A stretch of 64,000 bases of DNA from an uncultured Bacteroidales bacterium. GTDB lineage: Bacteria; Bacteroidota; Bacteroidia; Bacteroidales; P3. This document shows positions 969 through 61,297 of the stretch, one piece after another. The position numbers and the translations under genes are program-made. Under the pieces are notes generated by a model. It saw nothing but the letters and a program-made list of their open reading frames with translations, did no database searches and was not told the origin of the DNA. How positions within the stretch are numbered: the stretch's first letter is position 1; every line of letters begins with the position of its first letter. The stretch is taken from contig ONBK01000007.1 in assembly GCA_900316055.1 (NCBI GenBank), forward strand, positions 29,143-93,142. Direction: 5' to 3'.

Positions 969-996
969 CAACTTCTTTAATCTTTAACCTTAAAAC
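969..996. repeat. Short period-7 array
   Basis: Degenerate units of the CTTTAAC type spaced 7 bp apart fill the spacer between the serine hydrolase and the J-domain gene. It is the smallest member of the period-7 group. Confidence 0.4.
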
Positions 997-1008
997 GTAT
1001 ACTGTTAC

Positions 1009-1788
1009 ATGGGCTTTGCTAAATGGATATTTGCAGGATTGGGATGGGCAGTGGGTGGTCCCATCGGAGCTTTGCTAGGGTTCTTTCTCGGTAGTTCGTT
1101 CGACACCTCGTCGACATTTGTCGGTGATGGCTCCACGCATCATGGTCCTTATCGCAATACCGGTACCCAAGCTGATATCAACGCCGCTTTGATGGTGCTT
1201 ATCGCTGCCGTAATGAAGGCCGACGGGCAGGTGAAGAAAAGTGAACTCAACTATGTGAAAGCCTTCCTTCTGCAAAACTACGGAGAAGAGCGCGGGAAAG
1301 AGATGCTCAAGGTGTTGCAGCAGATGGTGCAGCAGGATATCCCCATCAACCAGGTGTGTGTGCAAATCAAGGTCAATACCGACTATAACACGCGCTACCA
1401 CATGGTGGATTTCCTTTTCGGATTGGGGCGTGCCGACGGCTCGTTTGACCAGACAGAACTCAATATGCTGCGCCTCATTGCCCAGTATCTGGGTATTTCG
1501 CAAAGCGACTATATTTCTATCTATGAGCGTCATGTAGGTGGCAGCTACTCAGGCAATCAGGCATTCAGGCAATCAAGCAATCAGAAAGATCCCTACAAGG
1601 TTCTCGGCACCACCAAAGACGCTACCGACGACGAGGTGAAAAAAGCCTACCGCAAGATGGCCATGAAGTACCATCCCGACCGTGTGGCCGGCATGAGCGA
1701 AGAAATGCAACGCAATGCAGCCGAGCAGATGAAGGGAATTAACGAGGCTTACGAGCAGATTAAACTCCTGCGGCCTAATCTAAAATAA
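1009..1788 (+). CDS. TerB-like / DnaJ-domain membrane-associated co-chaperone (DjlA type)
   Basis: A 259-residue protein with three parts: a Gly-rich hydrophobic N terminus (about residues 3-28, [16 protein letters not shown]) that could anchor it in the membrane, a helical TerB-like domain (about 50-165), and a C-terminal J domain (about 195-255) with the HPD signature at 222-224. This is the DjlA arrangement; such proteins stimulate DnaK ATPase near the membrane. The linker between the TerB and J domains (about 180-192, [12 protein letters not shown]) is encoded by a period-8 repeat array. The stop codon abuts the stop of the convergent udp gene with no spacer, so both 3' ends must terminate inside the neighbour. 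Confidence 0.85.
1549..1585. repeat. Period-8 array inside the J-domain gene
   Basis: Units CAGGCAAT, CAGGCATT, CAGGCAAT, CAAGCAAT follow at 8 bp spacing, in frame, exactly at the interdomain linker. The same units occur at 10329, 17918 and 61211. Confidence 0.7.
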
Positions 1789-3724: not shown

Positions 3725-3917
3725 GCGTTTAAAGTTTAAGGTTTGACGTTTCTTTTTTATTGGGACCCCTAATTTCTTAGTTTTTAATTCTTAATTCTTG
3801 ATTCACTCTTGGTTTCTTTCACTTTTTTAGTACTGCAAAAGTACGAAAACTTTCATAACTGGCAAAAAAACATTGACTTTCCTTAAACTTTAACCCCTAA
3901 CACTTAAACTTTAGTTG
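3725..3917. repeat. Three short period-7 arrays in one spacer
   Basis: Arrays at about 3725-3752 (GTTTAAA/GTTTAAG type), 3772-3806 (TTCTTAA type) and 3881-3917 (AACTTTA type). They fill the divergent spacer between the secreted protein (-) and the OmpA-family gene (+). Confidence 0.55.
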
Positions 3918-5549: not shown

Positions 5550-8500
5550 ATGAAGAAGTTGTTTGTAGTGGGGCTGTTAGGCCTGATGGGTTTGATGGGC
5601 AATATGTTGCATGCACAAACCGACTGGATGAAGATTGAGAAACTATTGTACGAAGGCTCCTATAAGAGTGCCTACACAGAAGCGGAATCGGTCTATAAGA
5701 AGACCCGTAACAGCAACGAACTGTTGACGGCCGCATGGTATATGAGCCGTGCAGCCGCCGAATACCAGGAAGATTACTACGACAGTACCCGTGCCCGTTA
5801 TCGTGCCATCCTGCCTCGCCTCGATGCCGTAGAGCGTTCTATTTGCTACGCTTTCCTCGGGGTGTACGACAGCGCGCTCCTCGACGAGGAGGTACTGAAG
5901 CGCACTCCCTCCGACCGCATTCTTCGCTTTTGTGATTTCGATGATGATTTTGCCGAAGATATTAAAGAAGGCAGCATCAATATCACCCCGACGGTGTATG
6001 ATGTCGTTGTGCGTAGTATCTTGGGAAATGGATACCAGTATCATTCTACAGGGAAAGAATATTTTGAGTTGTTTCGGAAACTGGTGGATTTCCATAGCAA
6101 CGACTCCGAAGAGCTCCGCATGTGTCTCGACCTCGAGTGGTTGGACGATATTCATGATGCCTACAATCAGCCCTACAACGATAAAATCATCCAGACGTAT
6201 ATCAACAAATATCGTGGCAGCAAGAGCCCTTTGCTGACGACCTTCTACTACGAGATGGCTCACTATCTTAATTCAGTACAGCGATATGTCGAAGCCGTCA
6301 ACTATTGCGATACAGCTGTTGCTCTGGCCCCCAAGAGCTATGGGGGAGCCCTTTGCATCAATCTCAAGAATGAGATAAGTGCCGCCCGTATCCATTTCCA
6401 GTCTGGTTACAACTCCACAGTTTATCCCGATCAGCCGTCTCTCCAAGGCCTCACCTACAGGAATTTGAAACGTATCTGTTTCGCTGTCTACCCATTCGAA
6501 GGCGATTGGTCGAAAAAATTCTTTGAGAAACTCCCCCAGCCAGTAAAGCAATGGCAGCTCGATGTGGTTGACGATGGTACCTATCGGGAGAACAACATCT
6601 ACTTCGAAATGCCGGCCCTTCCGACGGGACACTATCTCCTCATGGCTTCTCCCGATGGCAAAATGGACAACCAGAGCGCCAATATCGAGATTCACTCCAC
6701 CGACTTGATGGTAGCAAGAAATGGTTCTGTTTTTCAGCTCTTCGATGCCCACAACGGCACTCCTATTATTGGTCAGCGTGTGGATTTTTATAGAGAAAAC
6801 CGCAGCGATACCACCCTTATCGATAGTGCCTACTCCGATGCCACCGGTCGTGTGGACTATAAGGGCAAACCTTCTTCCATTACCTTGAAAATCAAACGGG
6901 GAGGCATTGTATTTAAAAAGGATGTCTATCATTATCGCGGGTCTTCTTCCAACCGCGAGATGCATTCGAGCATTAATCTGATGTCGGATCGCCCCATTTA
7001 TCGACCCGGTGATACCGTTCATTTCGCCGCACTCTGTTATCGGGCCGACGGTATCGACGGGGAGGTGCTCCCGAAAATTAAGGGTGAATTCAGATTCCGT
7101 GATCCTAACTACAAACAGAAAGATACTCTTGGTTTTACCACCGACGACCATGGTCTTGCTTCCGCCTTCTTTGTGATTCCCGCCGATGCATTGGGAGGAA
7201 GTTGGACAGTGGAATGTTTTATTCCCACAGGTGTTCTCGAAAAAAGTATAAGGTCGAGCATTCGTGTCCGTGTCGAAGAATATAAGCAACCCAAGTTCAT
7301 GGTCTCTCTTGACGACGATTCGGATTTCGAACACCAGGTTCCGCAATTTGGCAAGCCTTATACCATTCGGGGTATCGCCCGAGCCTATAACGGTGCCTCT
7401 CTGGCTGGTGCCCGTGTGTTGTATGCGATTAACCGAGACTGTTACGATTGGAGATACGGATCCCTCATTAGCATAAAGGAAGTGGCTTCCGACACCCTCC
7501 AAGTCTCAGCCGACGGCACTTTCGACATCACCTTCACTCCAGAGCCCGACAGCGCTATTGACCTCTCGCTTAAGCCCAACTTCCAGTTCGAGGTTATGGT
7601 CGAGGTGACCGACATTAATGGTGAAACTCATTACGCTACCACAGATTTCCGTATCGGTTTCCAAAACCGTATACTTTCTCTCTCGAGTGTCAAGGACAAT
7701 ACCTCGAGTCTTGCCTCCATTTCCTATAGTCTCTCCGATCTTAACTATAACCCGGTCAAGGGCACTGTCAATGTTACTGTGCAGCGCTTGGCTGCTGCCA
7801 AACCACTATTGGCTCATCCTCTGTATTATAACTTTGCTGGAGCTACCCATACACTTACACGCGAGGAGTTCCACGAACATTTCCCCGGATTCTACTATAC
7901 CTACGACGAAATTGACTTCAATAACCGTGCGGTCGAATGGGCCTACAATGTCAGCCATACCGCCGATGGGAACTCGTTCTCTCAAACGGTTCCCCTGCCC
8001 GAAAGCAAGATGAAGTCGGGAGTCTATCGCATCGTCGTCAGCATTGATGACCTCTCCGATACCACCTACACCACGCTGACCCTCCCCAATGAGCGTCGTG
8101 TACAGCCACAGCCCACTAATGAACTCTTCTGGTACGAATTCTCTTCTACCTCGTGCGAGGTGGGCGACCGTATCACCCTCAGCTATGCTTCCGCTTTCGA
8201 CGATGTGCACATTTTCTACACCCTCACAGGCCCTGACGGTGTGGAACGAGACAGCCGCTGGCTCCCTGCCGGCTCCACCATCAAGCAACTCTCCATTCCT
8301 GTCGACACCTCTCTCCTTGGAGGCTTCTCGATAAGCCTGACAGCCGTAAAAAAAGGTGTTGTTTGTAACAAGAGTATGAGTATCAATGTCCCCTTCTCCC
8401 ACAAAGCACTAAAAGTCGACATCGCCACCTTCCGCGACAAACTGCAGCCCGGCGAGCAGGAAGAATGGACCATCAAAACAGATTATCCATTGTCTACGCT

Positions 8501-11500
8501 CATAATGACTATGTTCGATGACGCCCTCTCCTCCTATGGCTACTCCGATGGTTCGTGGTCGCTTTACCCATGGCGTGGAAATCACGGTAGGGGTTATTCG
8601 GATTGGTTGACTCTTGGATTCAGTAGTATCCCTTACAATGCTTTTTCCGATAGCAAAAAGGAGATTGGTTACAGCCCTGAAACCCTTGGATTCATCCTAA
8701 AGCAGGGTTTTTTCTCCTATGGTGGGTATCGTTGGAGAAAATCAGCACATGTTGTTGAAGTATCTTCAACTGCCCGAGGAGAAGACGGTATGGTCTCCAA
8801 CGCCAAGGTGGATTCTCTTGCTACGGGATGTCTCAAGGGTACCGTCACCGACGAGAAAACGGCTGAAACACTTCCTTTCGTCAACGTTATTGTCAAGCAA
8901 AATGGTAAACTGGTATCGGGTGGTACCACGGATTTCGATGGCGTTTACATCATCAAACACCTCAAAGAAGGAACATACGACATCGAGATGGCCACAGTTG
9001 GCTATCAGAGCTACAAGAGGACAGGCGTCAAAGTGCTGTCTACAGGATTCACGGTGGTTGATATCCAACTTCATCCTACTGCCACCAACCTCGAAGAAGT
9101 CCAAATCGTGGAGGAGAAGGTGCCCGTGATAGAGATTGGTTCTCCAGAATCGGGAAAGCGAATCTCTAGCGACGACATCCAGCGCATGCCGGGTAACTCT
9201 GTGGAGAGCATTGTTGCCGCAGTAGGCGGAATAGGTTATAGCGACGGCGGCACCGTGCAGCAGCCCGTACAGGTACGCACCAACCTCAACACCTATGCTT
9301 TCTTCGTCGCCGGCCTCCATACCGATAGCACTGGTACCGCCACCTATCGCTTCACCGTTCCGGAACTTCTTACCCGTTGGAAGGTCAAAGGGCTTGCCTA
9401 TACCGACGACCTCAAGAGCGGCACGCTCGAGCGCACTCTCGTTACCCAGAAATCCCTGATGGTACAGCCCAATATCCCGCGCTTCCTGCGTCACGGCGAC
9501 AGCATCGTGCTCATGGCCAAGGTGGTGCTTGTGGAGCCGATTTCGACTCCGCAGGAGGTTGACGTTACCCTCCTTCTTACCGACGCCGCCACGGGCGATA
9601 CCATCACCCTTCAGCACCGTCAGGTGACTGTGAAAGATGCTGCCCAGGTGACCTTCCCCATCTTGGTGCCGAACAACGTCTATGTGGCTACCTACCAGAT
9701 TGCTGCCGTAGCCCAAGGGGGCGCCCTCGCCGATAGGAAATATAGCGACGGAGAACGTGGCCAGATTCCCGTTGTCTCCGACCGGCAGGCCGTCACCCTC
9801 TCGCAACCGGTGTATATCAACGGCAAGGGCGAAAAGAAATTCACCTTTCATCTTTCACCTCTCACCTCCACAGCAACGCCCCATTTCCTCGGTGCCGAGC
9901 TGGTCAGCAATCCCGTATGGCTTGCCATCAAGTCGATGCCCTATCTCAAGGAGCAGGAGAACCCCTCTACGCTCTATCTTGCCAACAGCCTCTATGTCAA
10001 CACTCTTGCCAATAAAATACTAGAAAAACTAGATATTATAGAAATGCTAGGAAAACTAGCTGACACCGCCAATACCCGTTTGAAGATTAATGAGGATGTC
10101 AAGCAGACGCTCCTTGAGGCTACCCCGTGGCTCCGCGATGCGGAAGCCGAGGTGGAACAACGACAAGCTATAGCCAACTACTTCGACTCTGCCCGTCTTT
10201 CGGAGGAATTCTCCAAACTGAATGCCCAGCTTGCCTCTCGTCAGAACTCCGACGGTGGTTGGAGTTGGATGCCCGAGGGCGAAAGCTCCACTTGGGTCAC
10301 CATGCAGGTACTCAAACGACTCTCCATACTCAAACAATCAAACAATCAAGCAATCAAGCAATCTCTTTCCTACGTTGATCGCGAGGAGCAGCGCCACTAC
10401 GAGAAATACATCAAGCCCTACTTGAAGAAATACAAATGGGAACCCGACAACATCGACTATCTCTACACCCGTTCGTATTATGGAAAGGGCACTACGGAGG
10501 CGTATAAGTTCTACTACAAGAACGCTTTGAAGAACTACAGAAAATACAACGGACTCTACACCCAGGCCCAACTGGCCCTTATCTTCCAGCGTCACGGGGA
10601 CAAGAAGGCCGCTCGCGACCTCATCCGTCGCCTCAAGGAGAAGTGTCTGGTAAATGACGAGATGGGTATGTACTGGCGCGACAACCGTAGCGGCTGGTGC
10701 TGGTACGAGCGTCCCATCGAGACCCAAGCCCTTCTCATCCAGGCTTTCCGCGAAGTTGTCCCACAAGATACTCTCTCTATCGCTCTCATGCAGCAATGGC
10801 TCCTCAAGCAGAAGCAGACCTCCCACTGGGGCAATGATCGCGCTACCGTTGAAGCCATCAGCGCTTTGATGATAGGTAAGAGGTATGAGGTAGGAGGTAA
10901 GACGCTCCAAACTCCAACCTCTATTGAGGCCCTCAAGAGCACCACGATGACCCTCTGCGGCATCGGCCTCTCGGCACCCTCCGAAGGCCTTGAAGGCTAC
11001 CGCTCTCAGCGCTGGGAAGGACCTGCGCTCGACAGCATCATCGCCCTCGGCGACAGCACCATCACTCTCCGCAAGAACACTTCTGGTATCGCTTGGGGCT
11101 CTGTCTACTTCCAGTACACCGACGATATGGACAAGATACCCTCTTCCGAGAGCGGCATCACGATAAGTCGGAGGTATGAATTAAGAGGTCAGACAATTCA
11201 ACCTCCAACCTCCGACCTCCAACCTCCTACCTCACTAAAGGTGGGTGACCGCATCAAGGTCCGCATCGATATTTCCTGCGACCGAACGATGGAGTACCTT
11301 GAACTCATCGACGGACGTCCTTCCTGCGTCGAACCCCTGAGCACCCGCGCCGGTTGGTGTTGGAATGACGGACTTCGCTACTATGTCGATGTTAAGAATA
11401 CCGCCACCCATTGCTACATCAACCGCCTCGAGAAAGGCAAGTATGTTGTTGAGTATGAGGTCTATGTCACCAATCCAGGGACCTTCCTCGCCGGCCCCGT

Positions 11501-11570
11501 TACCATGCAGTGTATGTACGCCCCTGAGTTCCGCGCTATCGCCCCCGCGCAGCGTTTGACCGTGAAATGA
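5550..11570 (+). CDS. Alpha-2-macroglobulin family protein with inserted regulatory/plug-like segment, no thioester Cys
   Basis: A 2006-residue secreted protein with a signal peptide ending MLHAQ. An N-terminal helical region is followed by MG-type domains, including the MG2 signature DRPIYRPGDTVHF (about residue 478). The A2M domain shows FFVAGLHTDSTGTATYRFTV (about 1252), and a helical TED-like domain lies at about 1450-1790. Inserted before the A2M domain is a CarboxypepD_reg-like domain (about 1092-1172, LKGTVTDEKTAETLPFVNVI) and a short stretch like the start of a TonB receptor plug (RISSDDIQRMPGNSVESIV, near 1205). At the usual thioester site, where C-x-E-Q is expected, the sequence is PYLKEQENPSTLYL: the Cys is absent, so covalent trapping is unlikely. 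Five repeat arrays lie in frame in the second half. Confidence 0.85.
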   Translation: MKKLFVVGLLGLMGLMGNMLHAQTDWMKIEKLLYEGSYKSAYTEAESVYKKTRNSNELLTAAWYMSRAAAEYQEDYYDSTRARYRAILPRLDAVERSICYAFLGVYDSALLDEEVLKRTPSDRILRFCDFDDDFAEDIKEGSINITPTVYDVVVRSILGNGYQYHSTGKEYFELFRKLVDFHSNDSEELRMCLDLEWLDDIHDAYNQPYNDKIIQTYINKYRGSKSPLLTTFYYEMAHYLNSVQRYVEAVNYCDTAVALAPKSYGGALCINLKNEISAARIHFQSGYNSTVYPDQPSLQGLTYRNLKRICFAVYPFEGDWSKKFFEKLPQPVKQWQLDVVDDGTYRENNIYFEMPALPTGHYLLMASPDGKMDNQSANIEIHSTDLMVARNGSVFQLFDAHNGTPIIGQRVDFYRENRSDTTLIDSAYSDATGRVDYKGKPSSITLKIKRGGIVFKKDVYHYRGSSSNREMHSSINLMSDRPIYRPGDTVHFAALCYRADGIDGEVLPKIKGEFRFRDPNYKQKDTLGFTTDDHGLASAFFVIPADALGGSWTVECFIPTGVLEKSIRSSIRVRVEEYKQPKFMVSLDDDSDFEHQVPQFGKPYTIRGIARAYNGASLAGARVLYAINRDCYDWRYGSLISIKEVASDTLQVSADGTFDITFTPEPDSAIDLSLKPNFQFEVMVEVTDINGETHYATTDFRIGFQNRILSLSSVKDNTSSLASISYSLSDLNYNPVKGTVNVTVQRLAAAKPLLAHPLYYNFAGATHTLTREEFHEHFPGFYYTYDEIDFNNRAVEWAYNVSHTADGNSFSQTVPLPESKMKSGVYRIVVSIDDLSDTTYTTLTLPNERRVQPQPTNELFWYEFSSTSCEVGDRITLSYASAFDDVHIFYTLTGPDGVERDSRWLPAGSTIKQLSIPVDTSLLGGFSISLTAVKKGVVCNKSMSINVPFSHKALKVDIATFRDKLQPGEQEEWTIKTDYPLSTLIMTMFDDALSSYGYSDGSWSLYPWRGNHGRGYSDWLTLGFSSIPYNAFSDSKKEIGYSPETLGFILKQGFFSYGGYRWRKSAHVVEVSSTARGEDGMVSNAKVDSLATGCLKGTVTDEKTAETLPFVNVIVKQNGKLVSGGTTDFDGVYIIKHLKEGTYDIEMATVGYQSYKRTGVKVLSTGFTVVDIQLHPTATNLEEVQIVEEKVPVIEIGSPESGKRISSDDIQRMPGNSVESIVAAVGGIGYSDGGTVQQPVQVRTNLNTYAFFVAGLHTDSTGTATYRFTVPELLTRWKVKGLAYTDDLKSGTLERTLVTQKSLMVQPNIPRFLRHGDSIVLMAKVVLVEPISTPQEVDVTLLLTDAATGDTITLQHRQVTVKDAAQVTFPILVPNNVYVATYQIAAVAQGGALADRKYSDGERGQIPVVSDRQAVTLSQPVYINGKGEKKFTFHLSPLTSTATPHFLGAELVSNPVWLAIKSMPYLKEQENPSTLYLANSLYVNTLANKILEKLDIIEMLGKLADTANTRLKINEDVKQTLLEATPWLRDAEAEVEQRQAIANYFDSARLSEEFSKLNAQLASRQNSDGGWSWMPEGESSTWVTMQVLKRLSILKQSNNQAIKQSLSYVDREEQRHYEKYIKPYLKKYKWEPDNIDYLYTRSYYGKGTTEAYKFYYKNALKNYRKYNGLYTQAQLALIFQRHGDKKAARDLIRRLKEKCLVNDEMGMYWRDNRSGWCWYERPIETQALLIQAFREVVPQDTLSIALMQQWLLKQKQTSHWGNDRATVEAISALMIGKRYEVGGKTLQTPTSIEALKSTTMTLCGIGLSAPSEGLEGYRSQRWEGPALDSIIALGDSTITLRKNTSGIAWGSVYFQYTDDMDKIPSSESGITISRRYELRGQTIQPPTSDLQPPTSLKVGDRIKVRIDISCDRTMEYLELIDGRPSCVEPLSTRAGWCWNDGLRYYVDVKNTATHCYINRLEKGKYVVEYEVYVTNPGTFLAGPVTMQCMYAPEFRAIAPAQRLTVK
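9841..9870. repeat. Period-7 array in A2M gene
   Basis: CACCTTT, CATCTTT, CACCTCT, CACCTCC at 7 bp steps, encoding FHLSPLTS around residue 1431-1440. The same CACCTTT unit occurs in the S41 protease signal peptide and, inverted, in the ABC-F gene. Confidence 0.65.
10014..10060. repeat. Period-9 CTAG array in A2M gene
   Basis: Five units of the form nnnnnCTAG (one TATAG variant) at 9 bp spacing. They encode a helical-looking segment (LEKLDIIEMLGKLAD, about residues 1490-1504) immediately after the degenerate thioester region. Confidence 0.7.
10329..10363. repeat. Period-8 array in A2M gene
   Basis: CAAACAAT twice then CAAGCAAT twice, encoding KQSNNQAIKQSL near residue 1594-1605. Unit sequence matches the atpB-pgk spacer array. 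Confidence 0.7.
10874..10921. repeat. Period-7 inverted array in A2M gene
   Basis: GGTAAGA, GGTATGA, GGTAGGA, GGTAAGA, then a short centre, then CTCCAAACTCCAACCTC as the opposite arm. Encodes GKRYEVGGKTLQTPTSIE (about 1775-1792). Confidence 0.7.
11169..11236. repeat. Period-7 inverted array in A2M gene
   Basis: A GGAGGTATGAATTAAGAGG arm, a short centre, then five ACCTCC-type units at 7 bp steps. Encodes RRYELRGQTIQPPTSDLQPP (about residues 1874-1893). Confidence 0.7.
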
Positions 11571-11635: not shown

Positions 11636-11676
11636 GTGAACTTGTAAGATGCTGGTAGTCAGTCGTAGAACGACAC

Positions 11677-11752
11677 CAACACCGTATCAACACCGTATCA
11701 TCTCCCTACCAACACCGTACCAACTCCTACCATGGTCGGTGTTGATAGGGAG
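11677..11752. repeat. Period-11 inverted array element, copy 1
   Basis: Five 11-bp units (CAACACCGTAT at 11677 and 11688, a divergent unit at 11699, CAACACCGTAC at 11710, CAACTCCTACC at 11721) are followed by a reverse-complement arm at 11734-11752 (GGTCGGTGTTGATAGGGAG). The transcript could fold into a long imperfect hairpin. It lies between the A2M terminator and the arcA promoter. Copies 2 and 3 are at 34547 and 58223. Confidence 0.8.
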
Positions 11753-17912: not shown

Positions 17913-17917
17913 TTAAT

Positions 17918-18010
17918 GTTTGATTGCTTGATTGCGTTAATGCATGAGTGGCTGACGCAATCAAACAATCAACCACTCAAACAATCAAGCAATCAACCAT
18001 TCAAACAATT
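17918..18010. repeat. Period-8 inverted array between atpB and pgk
   Basis: Left arm GTTTGATTGCTTGATTGCG, a centre containing GAGTGGCTGACGC, then seven CAATCAAx-type units at 8 bp steps. The array has no stop codon in the pgk frame. The centre is shared with arrays at 21275 and 61211 and, more weakly, at 47749. Confidence 0.8.
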
Positions 18011-41631: not shown

Positions 41632-41633
41632 AT

Positions 41634-44395: not shown

Positions 44396-46234
44396 GTGGC
44401 TCACTTTTTGCCTATAACGCTGGACGAGGTAAAACGCCTCGGATGGGAGATGGTCGACGTAGTGTTGGTCAGTGGTGACGCCTACGTCGACCATCCCTCT
44501 TTTGGCACTGCCGTCATCGGACGAACGCTTGAGGCGGCAGGCTACAGGGTGGCCATCATTCCGCAACCCAACTGGAGGGACGACCTGAGGGACTTCCGTA
44601 AGTTCGGCCGACCGCGACTCTTCTTTGGGGTTACCAGCGGCGCCATGGATTCAATGGTGAACCACTACACGGCAGCCCGCCGACTGCGTCACGACGATGC
44701 CTATACACCAGGAGGGGAGGCGGGATTCCGTCCCGACCGTGCCACCTATGTCTACACCCGTATCCTCAAGCAGATTTATCCCGATGTGCCGGTTATCATT
44801 GCGGGCATCGAAGCCAGTATGCGTCGTTTGGCGCACTACGACTATTGGGACGACAGGCTATTTCCGAGCATCCTCGTGGATACCCCGGCCGACCTGCTGA
44901 ACTACGGAATGGGTGAGAGGACGACGCTGAAGATTGCCCGTCTCCTGGATGAGGGCAAGGGCATTGAGAGTTGCCATGGGTTGCCGCAGGTGGCTTATTG
45001 TACCAAGAATATTCAGAATAATCAGAGTTTTCAGAATAATCTGATCACTTTGCACTCGTTCGAGGAGTGCCAAAAAAGCAAGCGCGCCGAAGCGGAGAAC
45101 TACCACATCATTGAATTGGAGAGTAACAAGATAGAGGCTGCCACGCTGGTGCAGAAACATGGTGGTCGCTATGTTGTGGTGAATCCTCCTGAGCCTCCTA
45201 TGACCACTGATGAGGTGGATGCATCGTTCGACCTGCCTTATCTGCGGTTGCCGCATCCCAAATACAAGAAGCGTGGTCCCATTCCGGCCTTTGAGATGAT
45301 ACGATGGAGCGTGAATACACATCGTGGGTGCTTTGGAGGCTGCTCGTTTTGCACCATCAGTGCCCATCAGGGCAAGCAGATTGCTTCACGCAGTGAGGAG
45401 AGTGTCTTGCGTGAGGTGGAAATCCTGACGCAGGATCCCGAGTTTCGCGGGGTACTTACCGATCTCGGAGGTCCTTCGGCGAATATGTGGCGCATGAAAG
45501 GAAAGAGCCCCGACCTCTGCCGCAAGTGCAGTCGCTACAGCTGCTCGATGCCTTCGATTTGCAAGAACCTCGACAGCGATCATCGTCCGATGATTGGCTT
45601 GTTGCGCAAGGTGGCAAGCCATCCCAAGGTGAAACATCTGTATGTGGGGAGTGGCATAAGGTGCGATTTGTTTCAAGAAGGAGTGAAAGGGAGTGAAAGG
45701 ACAAATGGGTTGGACGGTAATAATGCTGGTTGGGAGTATTTTCGTGAGGTGGTGGTCAATCACACCTCGGGGCGCTTGAAGGTGGCGCCGGAACATACGT
45801 CGGACCATGTGCTGGCGTTGATGCGAAAACCTTCGTTCGGCCTTTTTCGTGAGACCAAACGTAGGTTTGACGAAATCTGCAAACAGGCGGGGCTGCGCTA
45901 TCAGCTGATACCTTATTTTATCAGTTCGCACCCGGGATGCCGACTGGAGGATATGGCGCAGTTGGCACTTGATATGAAGCAGATGGGCTACCGGTTGGAG
46001 CAGATACAGGATTTCACGCCCACGCCGATGACGCTCAGCACGGAGATGTACTACACAGGCATCGACCCTGCCACGATGAAGCCTGTATATGTGGCGACGA
46101 CGGCGGCAGACAAAGCCGACCAGCGTCGGATGTTTTTCTTTTACAAGGACAACGAGCAGCGCGACATCATTGCGTCGTTGCGTCGTGCGGGACTTGCGCA
46201 CTTCATCCCGCGGCTATTTCCGGGCAAGAGATAA
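44396..46234 (+). CDS. ygiQ: YgiQ family radical SAM protein
   Basis: A 612-residue radical SAM protein. The cluster motif is C312-F-G-G-C316-S-F-C319. The N terminus (GWEMVDVVLVSGDAYVDHPSFG) is characteristic of YgiQ/UPF0313, as is RVAPEHTSDHV-like KVAPEHTSDHVL. The function is not established. The start is GTG directly after the oadB TAA with no gap, so it may be translated by re-initiation. Two repeat arrays are encoded in frame: a period-9 one (NIQNNQSFQNN, about residues 204-214) and a period-10 one (EGVKGSERTNG, about 428-438). Confidence 0.9.
   Translation: MAHFLPITLDEVKRLGWEMVDVVLVSGDAYVDHPSFGTAVIGRTLEAAGYRVAIIPQPNWRDDLRDFRKFGRPRLFFGVTSGAMDSMVNHYTAARRLRHDDAYTPGGEAGFRPDRATYVYTRILKQIYPDVPVIIAGIEASMRRLAHYDYWDDRLFPSILVDTPADLLNYGMGERTTLKIARLLDEGKGIESCHGLPQVAYCTKNIQNNQSFQNNLITLHSFEECQKSKRAEAENYHIIELESNKIEAATLVQKHGGRYVVVNPPEPPMTTDEVDASFDLPYLRLPHPKYKKRGPIPAFEMIRWSVNTHRGCFGGCSFCTISAHQGKQIASRSEESVLREVEILTQDPEFRGVLTDLGGPSANMWRMKGKSPDLCRKCSRYSCSMPSICKNLDSDHRPMIGLLRKVASHPKVKHLYVGSGIRCDLFQEGVKGSERTNGLDGNNAGWEYFREVVVNHTSGRLKVAPEHTSDHVLALMRKPSFGLFRETKRRFDEICKQAGLRYQLIPYFISSHPGCRLEDMAQLALDMKQMGYRLEQIQDFTPTPMTLSTEMYYTGIDPATMKPVYVATTAADKADQRRMFFFYKDNEQRDIIASLRRAGLAHFIPRLFPGKR
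45005..45047. repeat. Period-9 array in ygiQ
   Basis: AAGAATATT, CAGAATAAT, CAGAGTTTT, CAGAATAAT at 9 bp steps, in frame. Confidence 0.65.
45679..45703. repeat. Period-10 array in ygiQ
   Basis: GGAGTGAAAG, GGAGTGAAAG, then GAC. It is the reverse complement of the CTTTCACTCC units in the S41 protease signal peptide. Confidence 0.6.
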
Positions 46235-46913: not shown

Positions 46914-47846
46914 TTATTGGGTGGATTGCATTCGTTGGCGGAGATAGAGGATGGCGTCGATGTTGCGGGGGACCTGGAGGTCGAGGGTGCCGCTGACGAT
47001 GCCGATGACGTGGCCTTGCTTGACAGCGCTGAGGCGGTTGTAGGGCTTCGAGTTGCAGAAAGCGGCGCTGTCTTCGCGGCGCACGATAATAAAGTCGGGG
47101 TCCTCTTTCATCAGGGCTTCGAGGCTATAGCTCCATCCGTCGATACCTTCAGCGATATTACGTCCGCCGGCCATGCGGATGATGTCGTTGATGAAAGTGT
47201 TACCGCCGGCGGTGAAGTTGCCACCTTCACCGAAGCCGACGACGTAGTAGACCGAAGGTGTTGTTGCTTGATTTCTTGATTGTCTGGTCGCTTGATCATT
47301 AGGGTGTGTGGTCTCACTCAAGCAGTCGTTCATTAACGCAATCAAGCATTCATTCAGGCTGTCTGCTTCACGTTCCTTACCTACCAATTTTCCGATGGCC
47401 AGTATGTTGTCGTATAGGGCTTCGAACTTGGGTTTTTCGATGACGCAAACCATTGGGGTTCCCATAGCATCCATTTGATTGGTGACTTTCTTTCCCACCA
47501 TTGAGCCACAGATGACGAGGTCGGGCTGCAGGGCGAGGATGCTCTCGATATTCAGGTTGCTAATGCCACCGATGGAGGGAATGTCTGTCGCCTCGTCAGG
47601 ATAAAGGCAGAAGTCGGTACGTCCCACCAGAAGGTCTTCGGCACCGAGGGCAAACATGATTTCAGTGACGGCAGGGGAGAGGCTCACCACGCGTTGCGGA
47701 TGAGTGGGCACCACGACCCTACGGCCGTAGTCGTCGGTGACGGTGTCGTTGTGTGATTGTGTGATTGTGTGATTGTGTGAGTGGCCGCAAGCAACCACCA
47801 ATAAGGCAATAACGCAATAACGCAATAATGCATTCAGCCTACGCAT
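46914..47846 (-). CDS. btuF: BtuF-like ABC transporter substrate-binding lipoprotein
   Basis: A 310-residue periplasmic binding protein of the helical-backbone class (cobalamin, haem or siderophore uptake). Visible: VVVPTHPQRVVSLSPAVTEI, GGISNLNIESILALQPDLVI and the C-lobe VGFGEGGNFTAGGNTFINDI, AGGRNIAEG. No permease or ATPase gene is adjacent. Remarkably the signal peptide and lipobox (ALLRYCVIALLVVACG) and the linker after the Cys (HSHNHTITQSHND) are encoded by a period-8 inverted array. A second array encodes the interlobe stretch NDQATRQSRNQATTPS (about 180-195). The start overlaps the fabG stop by eight bases. Confidence 0.85.
   Translation of the reverse strand: MRRLNALLRYCVIALLVVACGHSHNHTITQSHNDTVTDDYGRRVVVPTHPQRVVSLSPAVTEIMFALGAEDLLVGRTDFCLYPDEATDIPSIGGISNLNIESILALQPDLVICGSMVGKKVTNQMDAMGTPMVCVIEKPKFEALYDNILAIGKLVGKEREADSLNECLIALMNDCLSETTHPNDQATRQSRNQATTPSVYYVVGFGEGGNFTAGGNTFINDIIRMAGGRNIAEGIDGWSYSLEALMKEDPDFIIVRREDSAAFCNSKPYNRLSAVKQGHVIGIVSGTLDLQVPRNIDAILYLRQRMQSTQ
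47260..47358. repeat. Period-8 inverted array inside btuF-like gene
   Basis: TTGCTTGA, TTTCTTGA, TTGTCTGG, TCGCTTGA units on the left; CATTAACG, CAATCAAG, CATTCATT on the right. Encodes residues about 163-195 between the two lobes. Confidence 0.65.
47749..47832. repeat. Period-8 inverted array encoding a lipoprotein signal peptide
   Basis: TGTGATTG three times, then centre TGTGAGTGGCCGCAAGC, then GCAATAAC units. It supplies the hydrophobic core, lipobox Cys and post-Cys linker of the BtuF-like protein. Confidence 0.8.
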
Positions 47847-49655: not shown

Positions 49656-49733
49656 CAACATTTTTTTATATAAAACAAATTTATTTTTTTTTAACACACA
49701 ATTCTTTTCGAAAATTACGTTATTGTGTTTGAA

Positions 49734-50564
49734 ATGAAGAAAGAAAAAGTCAAAAAAAGAAGTCTGTTCGGTTGGATGAAGCCTTGGAAGAGTCTGGGGT
49801 GGGGGAGAAAGATCCTCCGTGTGGTGTGGGTGTCGATAGTGAGCCTGTGGCTTTTCTCGGTATTGCAGGTGTTGCTCGGCATCTTCTTTAATCCCCTGCT
49901 GACACCGCTGATGGTGCAGCGTTTCTTTCAGCAAGTCTTTGATGGTGAGCGCAAAGTCTGCTTTGAACGCGACTATGTGCCCCTAGACTCTATCTCGCCC
50001 AACCTAATCACTGCTGTGGTCTATGCTGAGGACGGCCTTTTTATGTATCACCATGGTTTTGACGTGAAACAGATGAAGATAGCTTATTCCGAGAATAAGA
50101 GCGGCAAACGTTTTCGTGGAGGCAGCACCATCAGTCAGCAGACCGCCAAAAATGCATTCCTGCCTCATTCCCGTACTATGATTCGCAAAGCGCTCGAGGC
50201 TTACTATACCATGATGATTGAAGTGTTTTGGAGTAAGCGTCGAATCATGGAGGTCTATCTGAATATCATTGAGTTCGGGGATGGAATTTACGGAGCAGAG
50301 GCTGCCTCGCAGCACTATTTCGGCCATTCAGCAAAGACGCTCTCCCGCAACGAGGCAGCGCAGTTGGCGGCCACGCTCCCATCGCCCCTCAAGCGAAACC
50401 CTGCCCACCCCTCCTCCTACTTCCGTCGCCGTACCGCCGACATACAGAGTCGTTTCGGCTGGGGCAAGGTAAACCTCGACAAGCCAGATCCCAAGAAGGT
50501 GAAGAAATATGAGAACCAGGAAACCCTTTGGGATTTCATCAAATGGTATTATGAGAAGGAGTAA
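49734..50564 (+). CDS. mtgA: Monofunctional peptidoglycan glycosyltransferase
   Basis: A 276-residue GT51 enzyme polymerising lipid II, anchored by one N-terminal helix (VWVSIVSLWLFSVLQVLLG). Catalytic Glu is in AEDGLFMYHHGFD, followed by FRGGSTISQQTAKNAF, a second conserved block EVYLNIIEFGDGIYGAEAAS and AATLPSPLKRNP. No transpeptidase domain. ATG 49734 (MKKEKVKKRS) is preferred over the GTG at 49725. Confidence 0.93.
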   Translation: MKKEKVKKRSLFGWMKPWKSLGWGRKILRVVWVSIVSLWLFSVLQVLLGIFFNPLLTPLMVQRFFQQVFDGERKVCFERDYVPLDSISPNLITAVVYAEDGLFMYHHGFDVKQMKIAYSENKSGKRFRGGSTISQQTAKNAFLPHSRTMIRKALEAYYTMMIEVFWSKRRIMEVYLNIIEFGDGIYGAEAASQHYFGHSAKTLSRNEAAQLAATLPSPLKRNPAHPSSYFRRRTADIQSRFGWGKVNLDKPDPKKVKKYENQETLWDFIKWYYEKE

Positions 50565-50596
50565 CGTTTAATGTTTAACGGTTAACGTTTAAAGAT
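50564..50596. repeat. Period-7 array between mtgA and xerD
   Basis: CGTTTAA, TGTTTAA, CGGTTAA, CGTTTAA at 7 bp steps. Confidence 0.65.
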
Positions 50597-51506
50597 GGAG
50601 ATAGAGCAGACATGGAAACGTTATCGTCGCGACTTCGAGACCTGGCTCAAACTGGAGAAGGGGCTCGCCGATAACAGCGTTCAGTCCTACCTTAGGGACG
50701 TGAATCATCTGTCGGTTTATATGTCAGAGATGGGTATTGAACCTGAATTGGTTACGTTGGAACACTTGCAGTCTCTCTTGAAGCGTCTCAACGACCTCGG
50801 CATCGCCCCCACTTCCCAGCGTCGCATTATTTCCGGCTGGCGCATGTTTTTCAAACACCTTGTCATCGAAGATGCCATCAAGGAGAATCCTGCCGACCTC
50901 CTCGACCTCCCACTCCGTCCGCAACATCTGCCCGATGTGCTAACCGACGAGGATATAACAAAGATTCAGGCTACTTTCGACCTCTCTTTTCCCGATCAGT
51001 ACCGCAACAACGTTATCGTCGAGGTGCTCTATGGCTGCGGACTTCGTGTGTCGGAATTGGTAAATCTTAAGCTCTCAAATATTTACCTCGATGAGCAGAT
51101 GCTACAGATTTTTGGTAAGGGCAGTAAGGAACGCTGGGTACCCATCAACCCCCGTGCTCTCGACATGCTCTCCACCTATATCCATACTGTCCGTTCTCAA
51201 ATCTCTCCCAAACTCCATGAAGAGAAATATGTCTTTCTCAACCGTCGTGGTTCTCACCTCTCGCGCAACTATGTCTTCATGTTCCTCAAGCAAGCTGTCC
51301 TCGATGCCGGCATCGACAAGCATGTGAGTCCCCACTCCCTGCGTCATTCTTTCGCAACGGAACTCGTCGAAAATGGCGCCGACCTTCGTGCCGTTCAAGA
51401 GATGCTGGGCCACGAGAGCATTTCCACCACCGAGATTTACACACACCTCACGCGTGACACCCTCCGCAACACCATCGAGGCCTACCACCCTCACTACAAG
51501 AAATAA
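50595..51506 (+). CDS. xerD: Tyrosine recombinase XerD
   Basis: A 303-residue tyrosine recombinase for chromosome dimer resolution. The N-terminal SAM-like domain begins FETWLKLEKGLADNSVQSY. Catalytic residues are Arg151 (GCGLRVSEL), Lys in GKGSKERWVP, His-x-x-Arg in HSLRHSFAT, His in LGHESISTT and the Tyr nucleophile in EIYTHL. All are present, so it should be active. A diverged copy of its middle segment occurs at 57902. Confidence 0.93.
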   Translation: MEIEQTWKRYRRDFETWLKLEKGLADNSVQSYLRDVNHLSVYMSEMGIEPELVTLEHLQSLLKRLNDLGIAPTSQRRIISGWRMFFKHLVIEDAIKENPADLLDLPLRPQHLPDVLTDEDITKIQATFDLSFPDQYRNNVIVEVLYGCGLRVSELVNLKLSNIYLDEQMLQIFGKGSKERWVPINPRALDMLSTYIHTVRSQISPKLHEEKYVFLNRRGSHLSRNYVFMFLKQAVLDAGIDKHVSPHSLRHSFATELVENGADLRAVQEMLGHESISTTEIYTHLTRDTLRNTIEAYHPHYKK

Positions 51507-58149: not shown

Positions 58150-58190
58150 AAAACACACATAACCTACTAGTTATGTGTGTTTTATTGTTT
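58150..58190. terminator. Terminator hairpin downstream of gpx/xerD fragment
   Basis: Perfect 14-bp stem AAAACACACATAAC (58150-58163) with 58170-58183, six-base loop, T-rich tail. The following bases match those after the A2M terminator (AACTTGTAA). Confidence 0.85.
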
Positions 58191-58222
58191 TAGTAAACTT
58201 GTAACTTGCTGATACTTAATAC

Positions 58223-58329
58223 CAACACCGTATCAACACCGTACCAACACCGTACCAACTCCTACCGAAGTCCGACTACGGTCGGAGATGGTACGGTGAT
58301 GGTGGGTCGATGGTAGGATGAAGGTGCGT
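58223..58329. repeat. Period-11 inverted array element, copy 3
   Basis: CAACACCGTAT 58223, CAACACCGTAC 58234 and 58245, CAACTCCTACC 58256, a centre hairpin TCCGAC-tacg-GTCGGA (58271-58286), then inverted 11-mers GATGGTACGGT 58287, GATGGTGGGTC 58298, GATGGTAGGAT 58309. Nearly the same unit as copy 1, 46 kb away. Confidence 0.85.
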
Positions 58330-58387: not shown

Positions 58388-58446
58388 CATTTTCTTTTTT
58401 AATTGGAAATATAAATAAATAATTAGTAATAAACAAATTAATCAAG

Positions 58447-61221
58447 ATGACAAAGTACGTTTACACGTTCGGTGGCAAGACCGCCGAGGGAAAAGCCGAC
58501 ATGAAGAATCTTTTGGGCGGTAAAGGCGCCAACCTGGCCGAGATGTGCCTTTTGGGTCTCCCCGTGCCCGCTGGTCTGACCATCACTACCGACTGCTGCA
58601 CAGCTTATTACGCAAACAACTGCCAGCTGCCTGCCGGTCTTATGGAGGAGGTGTGGAAAGGTGTGGAGAATATTGAGAAGATCATGGGAATGAAGTATGA
58701 CGACGCCGAGAATCCCCTGCTTGTCAGCTGCCGTTCGGGTGCCCGTTCGTCGATGCCCGGTATGATGGATACCGTTCTCAATATCGGTCTCAGCAGCAAG
58801 ACTATTCCCGGTATGTTGAAGAAGACCAACAATCCTCGTTTCGTGTATGACTCGTACCGTCGTCTGATTATGATGTATGCCGACGTGGTGATGGAGAAGA
58901 GCGAGGGTATCGAGCCCGCCGACGGTAAGGGTATCCGCAAACAGCTCGACGATATGCTCGACGAGTATAAGGCTGTGAAGGGTTACAAGAGCGACACGGA
59001 GCTTACCGCGGAGGATCTCCAGAAGTTGGCCGATGCTTTCAAGGTGCGTGTGAAAGAGGTGCTCGGTACCGAATTCCCCGACGATGCCCGTGCCCAGATG
59101 GAAGGTGGCATCAAGGCTGTGTTCAAGAGCTGGAACGGCAAGAAGGCCGTTGCCTACCGTAAGATTGAGGGTATTCCCGACGATTGGGGTACCGCTGTCA
59201 ACGTGCAGGCTATGGTGTTCGGCAATATGGGTGACACTTCCGCTACCGGTGTGGCTTTCACCCGCAACCCTGCCACTGGTGACAACCAGTTCTACGGTGA
59301 GTGGCTTATCAATGCCCAGGGTGAGGATGTGGTGGCCGGTATCCGTACCCCCAACCCCCTGAACGACGACACCAAGAACGAGAAGAACAAGGAGATGCCC
59401 TCGATGCAGGAGCTGATGCCTGAGACTTATAAGGAGCTCTGTGAGATTCGTCAGATTCTCGAGAAGAACTACCACGATATGCTCGATATCGAGTTTACCA
59501 TCCAGGATGGCAAGCTGTATATGCTGCAGTGCCGCGTGGGTAAGCGTACGGGTGTTGCCGCCCTCACCATGGCTATGGACATGATGAAGGAGGGGCTTAT
59601 CGACGACAGTGAGGTGGTGATGCGCATATCGCCCGCCCAGCTGGACGAGTTGCTGCACCCCATCCTCGACGCTGCCGACGAGAAGAAGCACACGGTGTTG
59701 GCCAAGGGTCTGCCCGCCGGTCCCGGCGGTGCCGTGGGTGTCATTGCTCTCACCAGCGAGAAGGCCAAGGAGTATCATGCTGCCGGCATTAAGAATATCC
59801 TTGTCCGTGAGGAGACCAATCCCGAGGATGTGGAGGGTATGCGTGCCGCTGACGGTATTCTCACCGCCCGTGGCGGTATGACCTCCCACGCCGCCCTTGT
59901 GGCCCGTGGCTGGGGCAAGTGCTGCGTGGTGGGATGCGACGCGGTGAAGATCAGCCTGGAGCAGGCTTCTGTGTCGACCGACAACTTCGGCAAGAAGAGA
60001 GTCAATGTTCAGGAGGACAACACTGTCATCATCGGTGGCAAGGTGTTCCACGAAGGCGACCTGCTCTCGCTGAACGGCTCCAAGGGCTATGTCTACGACG
60101 AGGAGGTGAAGATGATTGACGCTACGGAGAATCCGTTGTTCCAGCAGTTTATGAAGCTGGTTGACAAGCACCGCAAGATGGGTGTCCGCACCAATGCCGA
60201 CAATCCCGCCGACGCCCAGCGCGCCATCGATTTCGGTGCCGAAGGCATCGGACTGTTCCGTATCGAGCATATGTTCTACGGAGAGAACAGCGAGGTGCCG
60301 CTGGAGAAGTTGCGCAATATGATTCTTGCCGACACTTTGGAGGCTCGCGTTGCCGCGTTGGCCGAGTTGGAGCCTTATATGAGGGAGAGCGCCAAGGGTA
60401 CGCTGAAGGTGATGGATGGCAAGCCTCTGACCTTCCGTCTGATGGATCCCCCGCTGCACGAGTTTGTTCCTCAGACCGAGGAGAAGCAGCGCGAGGTGGC
60501 CAAGGCCCGTGGCATCGAGTTTGAGAAGTTGCACGCTCGCATTGAGAGTATGCACGAGGTGAACCCGATGATGGGTTTGCGTGGTGTGCGACTGGGTATC
60601 ATCTATCCGGAAATCACGGAGATGCAGTTCCGTGCCCTGTTCAGTGCCACCTGTGAGCTTTTGAAGGAGGGCAAGCACCCGATGCTGGAGATTATGGTTC
60701 CGCTGACCATCAACGCTGCGGAGCTGAAGCACCAGAAGGCGCTTGCGGACCGTGTGAAGGAGGAGGTGGAGAAGAAGTACGGTTTGAAGTTCGAGTATAA
60801 GTTTGGCACGATGATTGAGATTCCGCGTGCCGCGTTGGTTGCCAACCAGATTGCGGAGGTGGCGGAGTTCTTCAGCTTCGGCACGAATGACCTGACCCAG
60901 ATGACCTTCGGCTTCAGCCGCGACGACGTGAACGCCATTGTGAAGACTTATGTGGACGAGAAGATTATCCCTGCCGACCCGTTCAATAACTTCGACCGCG
61001 AGTGCGTGGGTGAGTTGGTGAAGATTGGTATCGAGCGAGGCCGTTCGACGCGTAGTGCCTTGAAGTGCGGAGTCTGTGGAGAGCACGGAGGAGATCCCAC
61101 TGCCGCCGAGTTCTTCTACAAGGCCGGCATGAACTATGTGAGCTGCTCGCCGTTCCGTGTGCCGGTGGCCCGACTTGCCGCCGCCCAGGCCGCCATCAAA
61201 GAGGCCAGGGGGAATGCTTGA
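58447..61221 (+). CDS. ppdK: Pyruvate, phosphate dikinase
   Basis: A 924-residue enzyme interconverting pyruvate, ATP and phosphate with PEP, AMP and PPi. The nucleotide-binding domain starts GGKGANLAEM; the phosphohistidine is in LTARGGMTSHAALVARGWGK (near residue 480); the PEP domain has GLFRIEHMF and a C-terminal CGVCGEHGGDPTAAEFFY. It supports PPi-linked glycolysis or gluconeogenesis. The stop codon and the last residues (GNA) lie in a period-8 array. The long opposite-strand frame over this gene is a shadow of codon bias. Confidence 0.96.
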   Translation: MTKYVYTFGGKTAEGKADMKNLLGGKGANLAEMCLLGLPVPAGLTITTDCCTAYYANNCQLPAGLMEEVWKGVENIEKIMGMKYDDAENPLLVSCRSGARSSMPGMMDTVLNIGLSSKTIPGMLKKTNNPRFVYDSYRRLIMMYADVVMEKSEGIEPADGKGIRKQLDDMLDEYKAVKGYKSDTELTAEDLQKLADAFKVRVKEVLGTEFPDDARAQMEGGIKAVFKSWNGKKAVAYRKIEGIPDDWGTAVNVQAMVFGNMGDTSATGVAFTRNPATGDNQFYGEWLINAQGEDVVAGIRTPNPLNDDTKNEKNKEMPSMQELMPETYKELCEIRQILEKNYHDMLDIEFTIQDGKLYMLQCRVGKRTGVAALTMAMDMMKEGLIDDSEVVMRISPAQLDELLHPILDAADEKKHTVLAKGLPAGPGGAVGVIALTSEKAKEYHAAGIKNILVREETNPEDVEGMRAADGILTARGGMTSHAALVARGWGKCCVVGCDAVKISLEQASVSTDNFGKKRVNVQEDNTVIIGGKVFHEGDLLSLNGSKGYVYDEEVKMIDATENPLFQQFMKLVDKHRKMGVRTNADNPADAQRAIDFGAEGIGLFRIEHMFYGENSEVPLEKLRNMILADTLEARVAALAELEPYMRESAKGTLKVMDGKPLTFRLMDPPLHEFVPQTEEKQREVAKARGIEFEKLHARIESMHEVNPMMGLRGVRLGIIYPEITEMQFRALFSATCELLKEGKHPMLEIMVPLTINAAELKHQKALADRVKEEVEKKYGLKFEYKFGTMIEIPRAALVANQIAEVAEFFSFGTNDLTQMTFGFSRDDVNAIVKTYVDEKIIPADPFNNFDRECVGELVKIGIERGRSTRSALKCGVCGEHGGDPTAAEFFYKAGMNYVSCSPFRVPVARLAAAQAAIKEARGNA

Positions 61222-61297
61222 ATGCTTGAATGCGTGATTGCTTGAGTGGCTGGGGTGGCTAATGGGCTGCCGTAGCGCTCAAGCAATCAGGCAATAA
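61211..61297. repeat. Period-8 inverted array between ppdK and rex
   Basis: GAATGCTT units at 8 bp steps, centre GAGTGGCTGGGG, right arm with GCTCAAGCAATCAGGCAATA. It contains the ppdK stop codon. Confidence 0.75.

Follow-up and report, generated by a model that had tools for sequence, protein, structure and literature searches.

A DNA anchor followed by species-specific short-period tandem arrays in a genus of Bacteroidales

The stretch considered here (the window) comprises 64,000 nucleotides of an uncultured Bacteroidales bacterium, C14:29143-93142 of a 2.43-Mb genome in 32 contigs, and carries short arrays of tandem 7-11 bp units dispersed through spacers and genes. The strongest finding is a DNA anchor, CATTTGTC, which is followed by arrays with a species-specific word. 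The explanation favoured, held with about as much doubt as confidence, is that the arrays form the arms of several families of dispersed repeats, short, palindrome-forming and non-autonomous, which are copied from species-specific sources, slip and turn over. The window was analysed with a further 399.6 kb of its own genome (together set A; 463,569 bp, 19% of the genome), 644,442 bp of the sister species G062 (RUG14564; set B) and 165,961 bp of G061 (RUG156; set C), with a wider sample of one or two stretches from each of 36 further genomes of the genus and one stretch from each of 20 genomes of the order. The relatives were picked via the alpha-2-macroglobulin-like gene of the window and are all Bacteroidales metagenome genomes; ruminants are named in the records of several, and RUG in the record names presumably denotes rumen genomes.

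The anchor and its unit were sought as the pattern CATTTGTCNNTTNACTNC, one mismatch being allowed, in 37 genus genomes and 24 outgroups with the reversed pattern as control. The genus genomes gave 219 matches against 19 for the control, the outgroups 49 against 63. Among the matches listed, which do not include those of G001, G002, G008 and G014, exact copies of the pattern read TTCACT in the own genome (10/10) and G007 (3/3) and TTAACT in G034 (56/58), G015 (2/2) and G035 (1/1), the base preceding ACT being fixed by species among these exact matches. As CATTTGT(C), the anchor precedes period-10 arrays at 3/6 in set A, 7/14 in set B and 3/3 in the G034 stretch. CATTTGT leads into an array at 7/51 occurrences in the own genome, 19/61 in G062, 1/10 in G061 and 4/5 in G034, compared with 9/175, 9/206, 0/44 and 0/9 for control words. 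The arrays that follow CATTTGT(C) vary in period and unit (TTTCACTCCC, TTTAACTTC, TTATCTCC, TGCACTCCC, TAATCAC and CCTTAACTCC), while within open reading frames (ORFs) the anchor occurs in two reading frames and on the opposite strand, indicating that it is conserved as DNA and not as protein. The period-7 words likewise differ between the sister species, with AAAGTGG in 31/142 arrays of set B vs 4/91 of set A and AAAGGTG in 13/91 arrays of set A vs 4/142 of set B.

Arrays were detected by ungapped autocorrelation, counting matches at a fixed shift with array thresholds of 12 or 14; TRF rows were counted at a score of at least 30, and placement in genes or ORFs rests on a simple ORF caller. 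At threshold 12 the window contains 25 arrays in 21 clusters, of period 7 (12), 8 (7), 9 (2), 10 (1) and 11 (3), with 78 TRF rows, and three shuffles of it gave no array of any period from 2 to 30 (threshold 14), in keeping with the short-period design described in the original prediction. No match to Rfam was found in the window. In set A (threshold 12) the counts for periods 7 to 13 were 92, 28, 20, 7, 11, 6 and 0, periods 2-6 being nearly absent with 1-3 arrays each. With overlaps removed, periods 6-12 gave 162 arrays in set A, 265 in set B and 45 in set C. The 36 genus genomes carried 114 arrays in 778 kb and the 20 order-level genomes 10 in 323 kb, six of these from G060 alone; as such the short-period arrays are confirmed as real and as a property of the genus, whose members differ strongly. 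The arrays are strongly skewed in composition, with a mean min(G,C)/(G+C) of 0.13-0.14 vs 0.38 in random windows, and one strand is free of G in 44-46% of arrays vs 1% of random windows. In set A 80/159 arrays lie in ORFs. The 91 period-7 arrays of set A fall into 33 unit classes, led by AAACTTT (15) and AAAGGTG (13), and its period-8 arrays are mostly forms of CAATCAAG.

The elements of the window are as follows, with the strand where one was assigned.

1549-1583: period-8 array TCAGGCAA/CAATCAAG, single arm, in the TerB/DnaJ-domain ORF 1009-1788.
3726-3804: period-7 arrays GTTTAAAG and TTAATTC, intergenic; orthologous site 77 bp shorter in G062.
9840-9868, plus strand: period-7 TTTCACC array in the alpha-2-macroglobulin-like gene (5550-11570).
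10015-10059, plus strand: period-9 CTAGnnnnn array, same gene; found by TRF only, unflagged by the detector used here.
10330-10363, plus strand: period-8 CAATCAAG/A array, same gene.
10874-10920, plus strand: period-7 AGGTAAG array with what we read as a degenerate inverted arm, same gene.
11199-11233, plus strand: period-7 CAACCTC array, same gene.
11675-11732: period-11 array CAACACCGTAC with a partial inverted arm, intergenic.
17915-18009: two-armed period-8 element, TTGATTGC arm, centre with AGTGGCTGACGC, CAATCAAG arm; related sequence recurs at about 40 other places in the genome.
20659-20689, minus strand: period-7 CTTTCAC array in ORF 20378-22267 (two ABC_tran domains, ABC_tran_Xtn and CTD).
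21277-21363, minus strand: two-armed period-8 element, centre AGTGGCTG, same ORF; the G062 site is shorter by 75 bp.
23031-23146: period-7 hairpin GTTTAAAG, centre GGCTGTGTCAGCC, CTTTAAC, intergenic.
30769-30801: period-9 ACTATAGTC array; G062 differs by one base.
32771-32820, plus strand: anchor CATTTGT then period-10 TCCTTTCACT array, at the N-terminus of ORF 32762-34423.
32838-32864, plus strand: period-7 TCACCTT array, same ORF.
34547-34640: period-11 AACTCTTACTC hairpin between convergent genes.
38971-39010: period-7 TCAATTT array.
41121-41219: hairpin with period-7 arm GTTTAAAG, core GCTGCCGCGTCAGC and period-9 arm CTTTTAAAC; 87 bp shorter in G062.
41633-41720: period-7 hairpin TGGTTAT / CAATAAC; G062 is shorter by 49 bp at this site and showed no such arrays.
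45680-45707, minus strand: anchor CATTTGTCC with a two-unit period-10 CTTTCACTCC repeat.
47749-47832, minus strand: two-armed period-8 element TTGTGTGA, AGTGGCCG centre, CAATAACG, in ORF 46914-47846.
50562-50592: period-7 TAACGTT array between ORFs 49725-50564 and 50595-51506; period-7 AATTCTC array at the G062 site.
58220-58315: period-11 TACCAACACCG hairpin between divergent genes.
61212-61297: two-armed period-8 element GAATGCTT, AGTGGCTG centre, CAAGCAATC, overlapping the end of ORF 58447-61221.

A separate coding minisatellite lies at 41453-41622 (63-bp unit, 2.3 copies) in ORF 41266-41631.

Units recur far apart, as had been proposed. CAATCAAG is found at +1570, +10343, +17982 and -17927, GTTTAAAG at +3727, +23042 and +41125, and CACCTTT at +9842 and +32839, shifted by up to about 65 bases from the positions first given because those were array starts. 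Dispersal extends across the genome. The stretch with one period-8 element gave at least 50 matches at no fewer than 41 distinct places in the own genome, itself included, among the 40 of 139 candidates scored. The element itself gave 48 matches in G062, 14 in G061 and 0-4 in six other relatives, some being both strands of one place.

The arrays had also been described as often followed by a reverse-complement arm. Counting such arms up to 110 bp away, with expectations taken from the flanks of other arrays, 35/159 arrays of set A (5.6 expected) and 60/257 of set B (7.2 expected) have an inverted partner, 6-8 times the control and a clear excess, yet about a fifth of the arrays and hence a clear minority. 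In adjacent complementary pairs (12 in set A, 23 in set B) the 5' arm is C-poor and the 3' arm G-poor. The periods of the two arms can differ within one hairpin (7 and 9 in element 41121), and in G034 the arms of one hairpin can be unrelated. Folded as single-stranded DNA, eight elements of the window gave z-scores from -1.8 to -7.0, six of the eight being below -3 and the others at -1.8 and -2.1.

Between or beside such arms lie fixed pieces. GCTACGC/GCTGACGC or their complements occur within 60 bp of the arrays of set A 14 times in 17,208 bp, a 5.4-fold enrichment relative to the remaining sequence, and this core adjoins arms of period 7, 8, 9 and 10 in set A and of period 7 and 8 in set B. 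The centre AGTGGC(T/C)G, said to be shared by four period-8 elements, was found at 17947, 21311, 47780 and 61245, adjoining the arms of all four two-armed period-8 elements, with the following sequence alike in two only; one centre reads AGTGGCTGACGC and one AGTGGCTGGCGC, while the other two diverge after AGTGGC. The 8-mer alone is not clearly unusual in the window (8 found, 4.2 expected, with 7/100 shuffles reaching 8). Common descent, which the original prediction had argued from this centre, is supported within classes, given their shared centres, shared anchor and variable arms, but not for one single family. There are several classes: the GCTACGC/GCTGACGC core with arms of period 7-10, the CATTTGTC anchor with arms of period 7-10, and period-11 hairpins that are nearly only intergenic. 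In set B the period-11 hairpins have loops of 2-6 bases with several units at several loci. The palindrome TGATnnATCA was considered as an anchor for period-11 arrays and rejected as weak (4/11, 3/31 and 1/14). In the own genome some period-11 arrays, for example at window 58190-58240, come after a hairpin resembling a terminator and a CTGATWATCAG-like palindrome, the palindrome being near 4/11, which hints at a composite repeat of larger size.

Comparison with the sister species showed extensive turnover. Out of 162 arrays of set A, 89 were placed in set B by both flanks and 86 scored (73 unplaced, three dropped for long gaps), with the unit kept at 21, an array of another unit at 22 and no array at 43. 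In the reverse direction 66 of 263 arrays were placed and 65 scored, with 20, 16 and 29 in the same categories; many arrays could not be placed because both genomes were analysed in part only. The sites themselves are common beyond chance, though the units often are not: an array of set A meets an array in set B at 28/51 coding, 9/21 intergenic and 6/14 mixed sites, compared with 21/672, 17/120 and 24/155 for random array-free positions. Had the units been unrelated between sites and the arrays fixed at orthologous loci, ordinary low-complexity spacers would have been indicated; in fact units recur, and only 21/86 arrays keep their unit in the sister. In some of the 17 alignments inspected, gains or losses of 75-137 bp stand between matching flanks. 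A difference of 14 bp is exactly two units between flanks 99-100% identical. Among the 51 coding arrays, 15 were of equal length in set B, 26 differed by a multiple of three and 10 by other amounts, some of which may be errors of the simple ORF caller. Where the unit was not shared, the non-zero differences were multiples of three in 22/29 (A to B) and 15/21 (B to A). Since independent assemblies show the same families, such differences in length and repeat between these metagenome genomes reflect biology.

In the favoured explanation each family would consist of a fixed piece (the GCTACGC/GCTGACGC core, the CATTTGTC anchor or a short-loop period-11 hairpin) with one or two arms of 7-11 bp tandem units, one strand of which is G-poor. 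New copies would arise from a few species-specific source copies and land in spacers and within genes alike, the arms would lengthen or shorten by whole-unit slippage, and copies would decay or be replaced at a high rate. Within genes, survival would be decided by reading frame and the tolerance of the protein, a filter through which the same tolerant sites would be hit repeatedly, at times by another unit. The copying step, its enzyme, its direction and the fewness of its sources are what we infer here. Families of non-autonomous palindromic repeats fit the fixed pieces with changing arms, the species words at dozens of loci and the turnover between sisters.

Several observations weigh against this explanation. 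The anchor is rich (at least eight matches) in only 8/37 genus genomes, and 6/20 anchor cases of set B read CATTTGTT, four of these being period-11 arrays that contain the word. The majority of arrays are without a recognisable second arm, and in set B the GCTACGC/GCTGACGC words near arrays (9 in 27,046 bp) are enriched only 1.6-fold. The 20 period-9 arrays of the own genome have 20 different units. Other genus genomes are sparser, with 12.6-16.6 arrays per 100 kb compared with 35 in the own genome. Presence or absence of arrays in sister genomes with clean boundaries had been proposed as a check; presence and absence were seen, but the flanks match well in some cases only, the ends of the elements are not sharp and in several are blurred by about 10 bases, and no target-site duplication was recognised in the 17 alignments. 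No enzyme among reverse transcriptase, Y1 transposase and SbcCD tracks the copy number of the arrays, and simple insertion fails to explain arrays of differing unit and period that fill the same length as non-repetitive orthologs (see below).

The last point is best seen in the alpha-2-macroglobulin-like gene, which encodes 2006 residues with MG2, A2M and bMG10 domains and has its five arrays in the second half. Its locus was aligned with 30 others, some being one genome under two names (L034/L089 and L036/L094). At 9840 TTTCACC arrays are present in the own genome, L031 and L088 (57 bp) and TTTCCAC arrays in L033 (63 bp) and L087 (60 bp), with arrays flagged also in L091, L098 and L100 and none flagged at similar length in L034 (57 bp) and L093 (60 bp). 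At 10015 CTAGnnnnn repeats occur in the own genome and L033 (both unflagged), L031, L091 (60 bp), L093 (69 bp) and L087 (78 bp), while the CCTTAAGGA type in L088, a heptamer AACTCTC array in L103 and the non-repetitive sequences of L105, L107 and L108 are all 60 bp. At 10330 there is AACTTATC/AACGTATC in L031 and a period-7 array in L036, at 10874 period-9 arrays of other units in L088, L091 and L093, and at 11199 CAACCTC also in L033, other arrays flagged in L088 and L096, and none in the remaining aligned orthologs. Repeats of 7 nt spanning 28-35 nt are not a by-product of amino-acid repeats. About 350 bp at window 9930-10330 are nearly identical to L033 although the upstream part of the gene is strongly divergent, which looks like recent recombination.

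Such replacement at near-equal length speaks for concerted evolution in place, in which old arrays keep their sites but take over units from other arrays of the genome, by gene conversion or by annealing, and each species converges on its own unit. The sites at 9840 and 10015 are in keeping with this, as are a site at C26 293337, where AATTGAA and AGTGGAA stand in phase at equal length, the genome-wide preference for AAAGTGG in G062 and AAAGGTG in the own genome, and an anchor that stays while the unit changes. Yet 43/86 sites are without an array in the sister, requiring gain or loss, and arms of 30-40 bp with different units offer little homology. Pure overwriting, seen in this gene, was rejected as a general mode because zero length change against G062 was found for only 7/36 coding arrays with an unshared unit (five places, one probably a weak G062 array). 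Equal-length replacement and shared sites with different units leave room for conversion in place, which on balance is rather unlikely.

Local slippage or template switching alone, with arrays born by polymerase slips of 7-11 nt as proposed for bacterial heptamer repeats generally, is unlikely. Heptamers are given as the commonest class of 5-11 nt repeats in most genomes in PMC4679880, reporting Mrazek and co-workers, and the two-unit difference between near-identical flanks would suit a slip of this kind. Units nevertheless recur unlinked, with common centres and an anchor, dozens of loci carry the species-specific unit, and hardly any array has a period below 7, such that the anchor and core statistics already speak against slippage as the whole story. 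The profile of ordinary slippage microsatellites, with short periods dominant and units unrelated between sites, was not seen, period 7 accounting for 92 arrays.

A little less likely again is that the arrays are maintained for a role in regulation, whether as leaders, as terminators or as hairpins that stabilise mRNA, comparable to the TAACTGA arrays found upstream of start codons. The period-11 hairpins are nearly always intergenic (11/11 and 28/30), and such a role would also suit period-7 arrays on phage. IMG/VR phage contigs carry the same kind of period-7 array, namely L268 (amidase) and L270 (tail tape-measure protein). In L268 the related words GTTTAAAG, GTTTCAAG and GGTTAAAG fill several gene gaps between 793 and 3751, with 5/8 period-7 arrays ending 0-7 bp before a start codon; thus the process or its products also reach phages. 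The period-10 anchor pattern had no match in IMG/VR. Against a regulatory role, about half of the arrays lie in ORFs and few keep their unit, and a start-codon function was rejected because period-7 arrays are no closer to starts than with random placement within the gap, at 13/30 (11.4 expected) in the own genome and 23/48 (22.1 expected) in G062.

It had been suggested that copy number might track a reverse transcriptase, transposase or nuclease, and none of the three tested did so. RVT_1 (PF00078) was found in 26/61 genomes and Y1_Tnp (PF01797) in 46/61, and both were compared with the arrays by counter-examples: G008 and G009 (88 and 95% complete) carry six and seven arrays in 20 kb with a match to neither. 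Both enzymes were therefore rejected as drivers of copy number, their presence being untied to arrays. SbcD was above its cut-off in 24/61 genomes and in neither G062 nor G061. Among genus relatives sbcD reached the cut-off in 15/36, with an SbcC-like ORF adjoining, and not in the others or the own genome; SbcC never reached its own cut-off, its best matches in the genus adjoining sbcD. In the first 20 genus genomes arrays seemed more frequent where SbcD was missing, but over all 36 the difference (16.6 arrays per 100 kb without SbcD, 12.6 with) was not significant (Mann-Whitney p = 0.14; arrays with an inverted partner, 0.71), and G034, among the two densest stretches with 18 arrays in 20 kb, has SbcCD. 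Loss of SbcCD was thus rejected as the determinant of the arrays.

The three RVT_1 proteins of the own genome are Drt3a and Drt3b (DRT3) and one of UG24 type. The first two lie at 3478-6593 of L263 (G000:C12:79001-87540) as a DRT3 defence system, adjoining a Y1 transposase ORF and a BRO-N/PDC-S13 ORF. The third, of 1126 residues with an HD-CE domain, is at 4714-8094 of L264 (G000:C24:122001-133000), and a protein that combines a CHC2 zinc finger with a Toprim domain is encoded nearby.

In telomerase-like addition a reverse transcriptase carrying a short RNA template would start on anchors like CATTTGTC and append 7-11 nt repeats that then become part of the chromosome. The reverse transcriptases of the own genome, the species-specific unit at the anchor, units of varying sequence and length behind it and the tandem-repeat cDNA reported for DRT10 (9 nt in one system, and in others of variable motif and length; PMC12632851) would suit this, yet it is very improbable with arrays present in G008 and G009, RVT_1 in only 26/61 genomes and without a match in many relatives that bear arrays, and many arrays without an anchor (10/23 of period 10). 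Equally hard to credit is the wider notion that the lineage writes species-specific 7-11 nt repeats from a short template at anchors like CATTTGTC, overwriting or extending adjacent DNA in the manner of telomerase. The template word that each species would then possess, changing at dozens of loci together while anchors stay, is just as improbable.

If the copying step of the favoured explanation exists, the repeats would be a rapid source of new peptide segments for bacterial genes, whether N-termini, linkers, strands or helices, read in more than one frame, and would amount to satellite-like, species-specific repeat words in bacteria. An anchor with changing arms offers a concrete handle for finding the copying machinery. 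In plain terms, in a group of ruminant gut bacteria scattered repeats of 7-11 letters come and go even in working genes, with a word that differs by species.

No description of a multi-period, anchor-led repeat family was found in the literature searched, mostly non-subscription, and the comparisons that follow rest on extracts of the papers cited. REP/BIME and GTAG- or CGTC-tagged repeats end in a tetranucleotide and their stems measure 5-13 bp, the CGTC type occurring in Bacteroidetes without a dedicated transposase (PMC3733652). They are likewise short, palindromic and dispersed in many copies, some intragenic, but differ in that the stems described here are tandem 7-11 bp arrays varying by site and species. 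The core word GCGTCAGC contains CGTC. The dependence of REP/RAYT on a Y1 (IS200-like) transposase was not found, PF01797 having no match in the array-bearing G008 and G009.

The palindromic elements of Rickettsia also lie in frame within unrelated genes (PMC10969869), and in-frame intragenic presence was found here (80/159 arrays in ORFs; 22/29 length differences multiples of three). The Rickettsia families are of about 150 bp (PMC10969869), whereas the arrays described here vary in their arms and keep no more than a short centre or anchor constant; one sequence conserved over the whole element was not found, arm unit and period differing around the same centre or anchor. TAACTGA heptamer arrays, reported from Beggiatoaceae, Cyanobacteria and some Bacteroidetes, with long simple repeats being heptamer-rich (Mrazek 2007, via PMC4679880), are likewise short arrays dispersed in the genome in scattered lineages. 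They are direct repeats of one fixed heptamer, in one genome mostly right before start codons (PMC4679880), unlike the many units, periods of 7-11, occasional inverted arms, location of half in ORFs and lack of start preference beyond chance seen here. TAACTGA did not appear in the lists of the most frequent period-7 units (up to 14 for each set).

The BrickBuilt MITE (miniature inverted-repeat transposable element) of Porphyromonas gingivalis, also in the Bacteroidales, has a tandem repeat within a dispersed element with small inverted ends (PMC4596501). It has a single 23-nt unit, 19 copies in one strain and is always intergenic (PMC4596501); a 23-nt unit and strictly intergenic placement were not found here, where units are 7-12 nt and half of the arrays lie in ORFs. 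The tandem repeats of Borgs are similarly fast-evolving, located in gaps and genes, biased in composition and gathered in a repeat hotspot region (PMC9879509). Borgs are extrachromosomal archaeal elements for which perfect amino-acid repeats under strong selection are reported (PMC9879509), in contrast to the degenerate units seen here, of which lengths 7, 8 and 10 break the frame; frame-keeping units were not the rule in ORFs, where 44/91 period-7 and 18/26 period-8 arrays lie. Finally, the DRT10 reverse transcriptase produces tandem repeats of DNA with units of similar length and of variable sequence, but its product is reported as cDNA in phage defence and not as chromosomal arrays (PMC12632851), and the RVT_1 types of the own genome are DRT3 and UG24.

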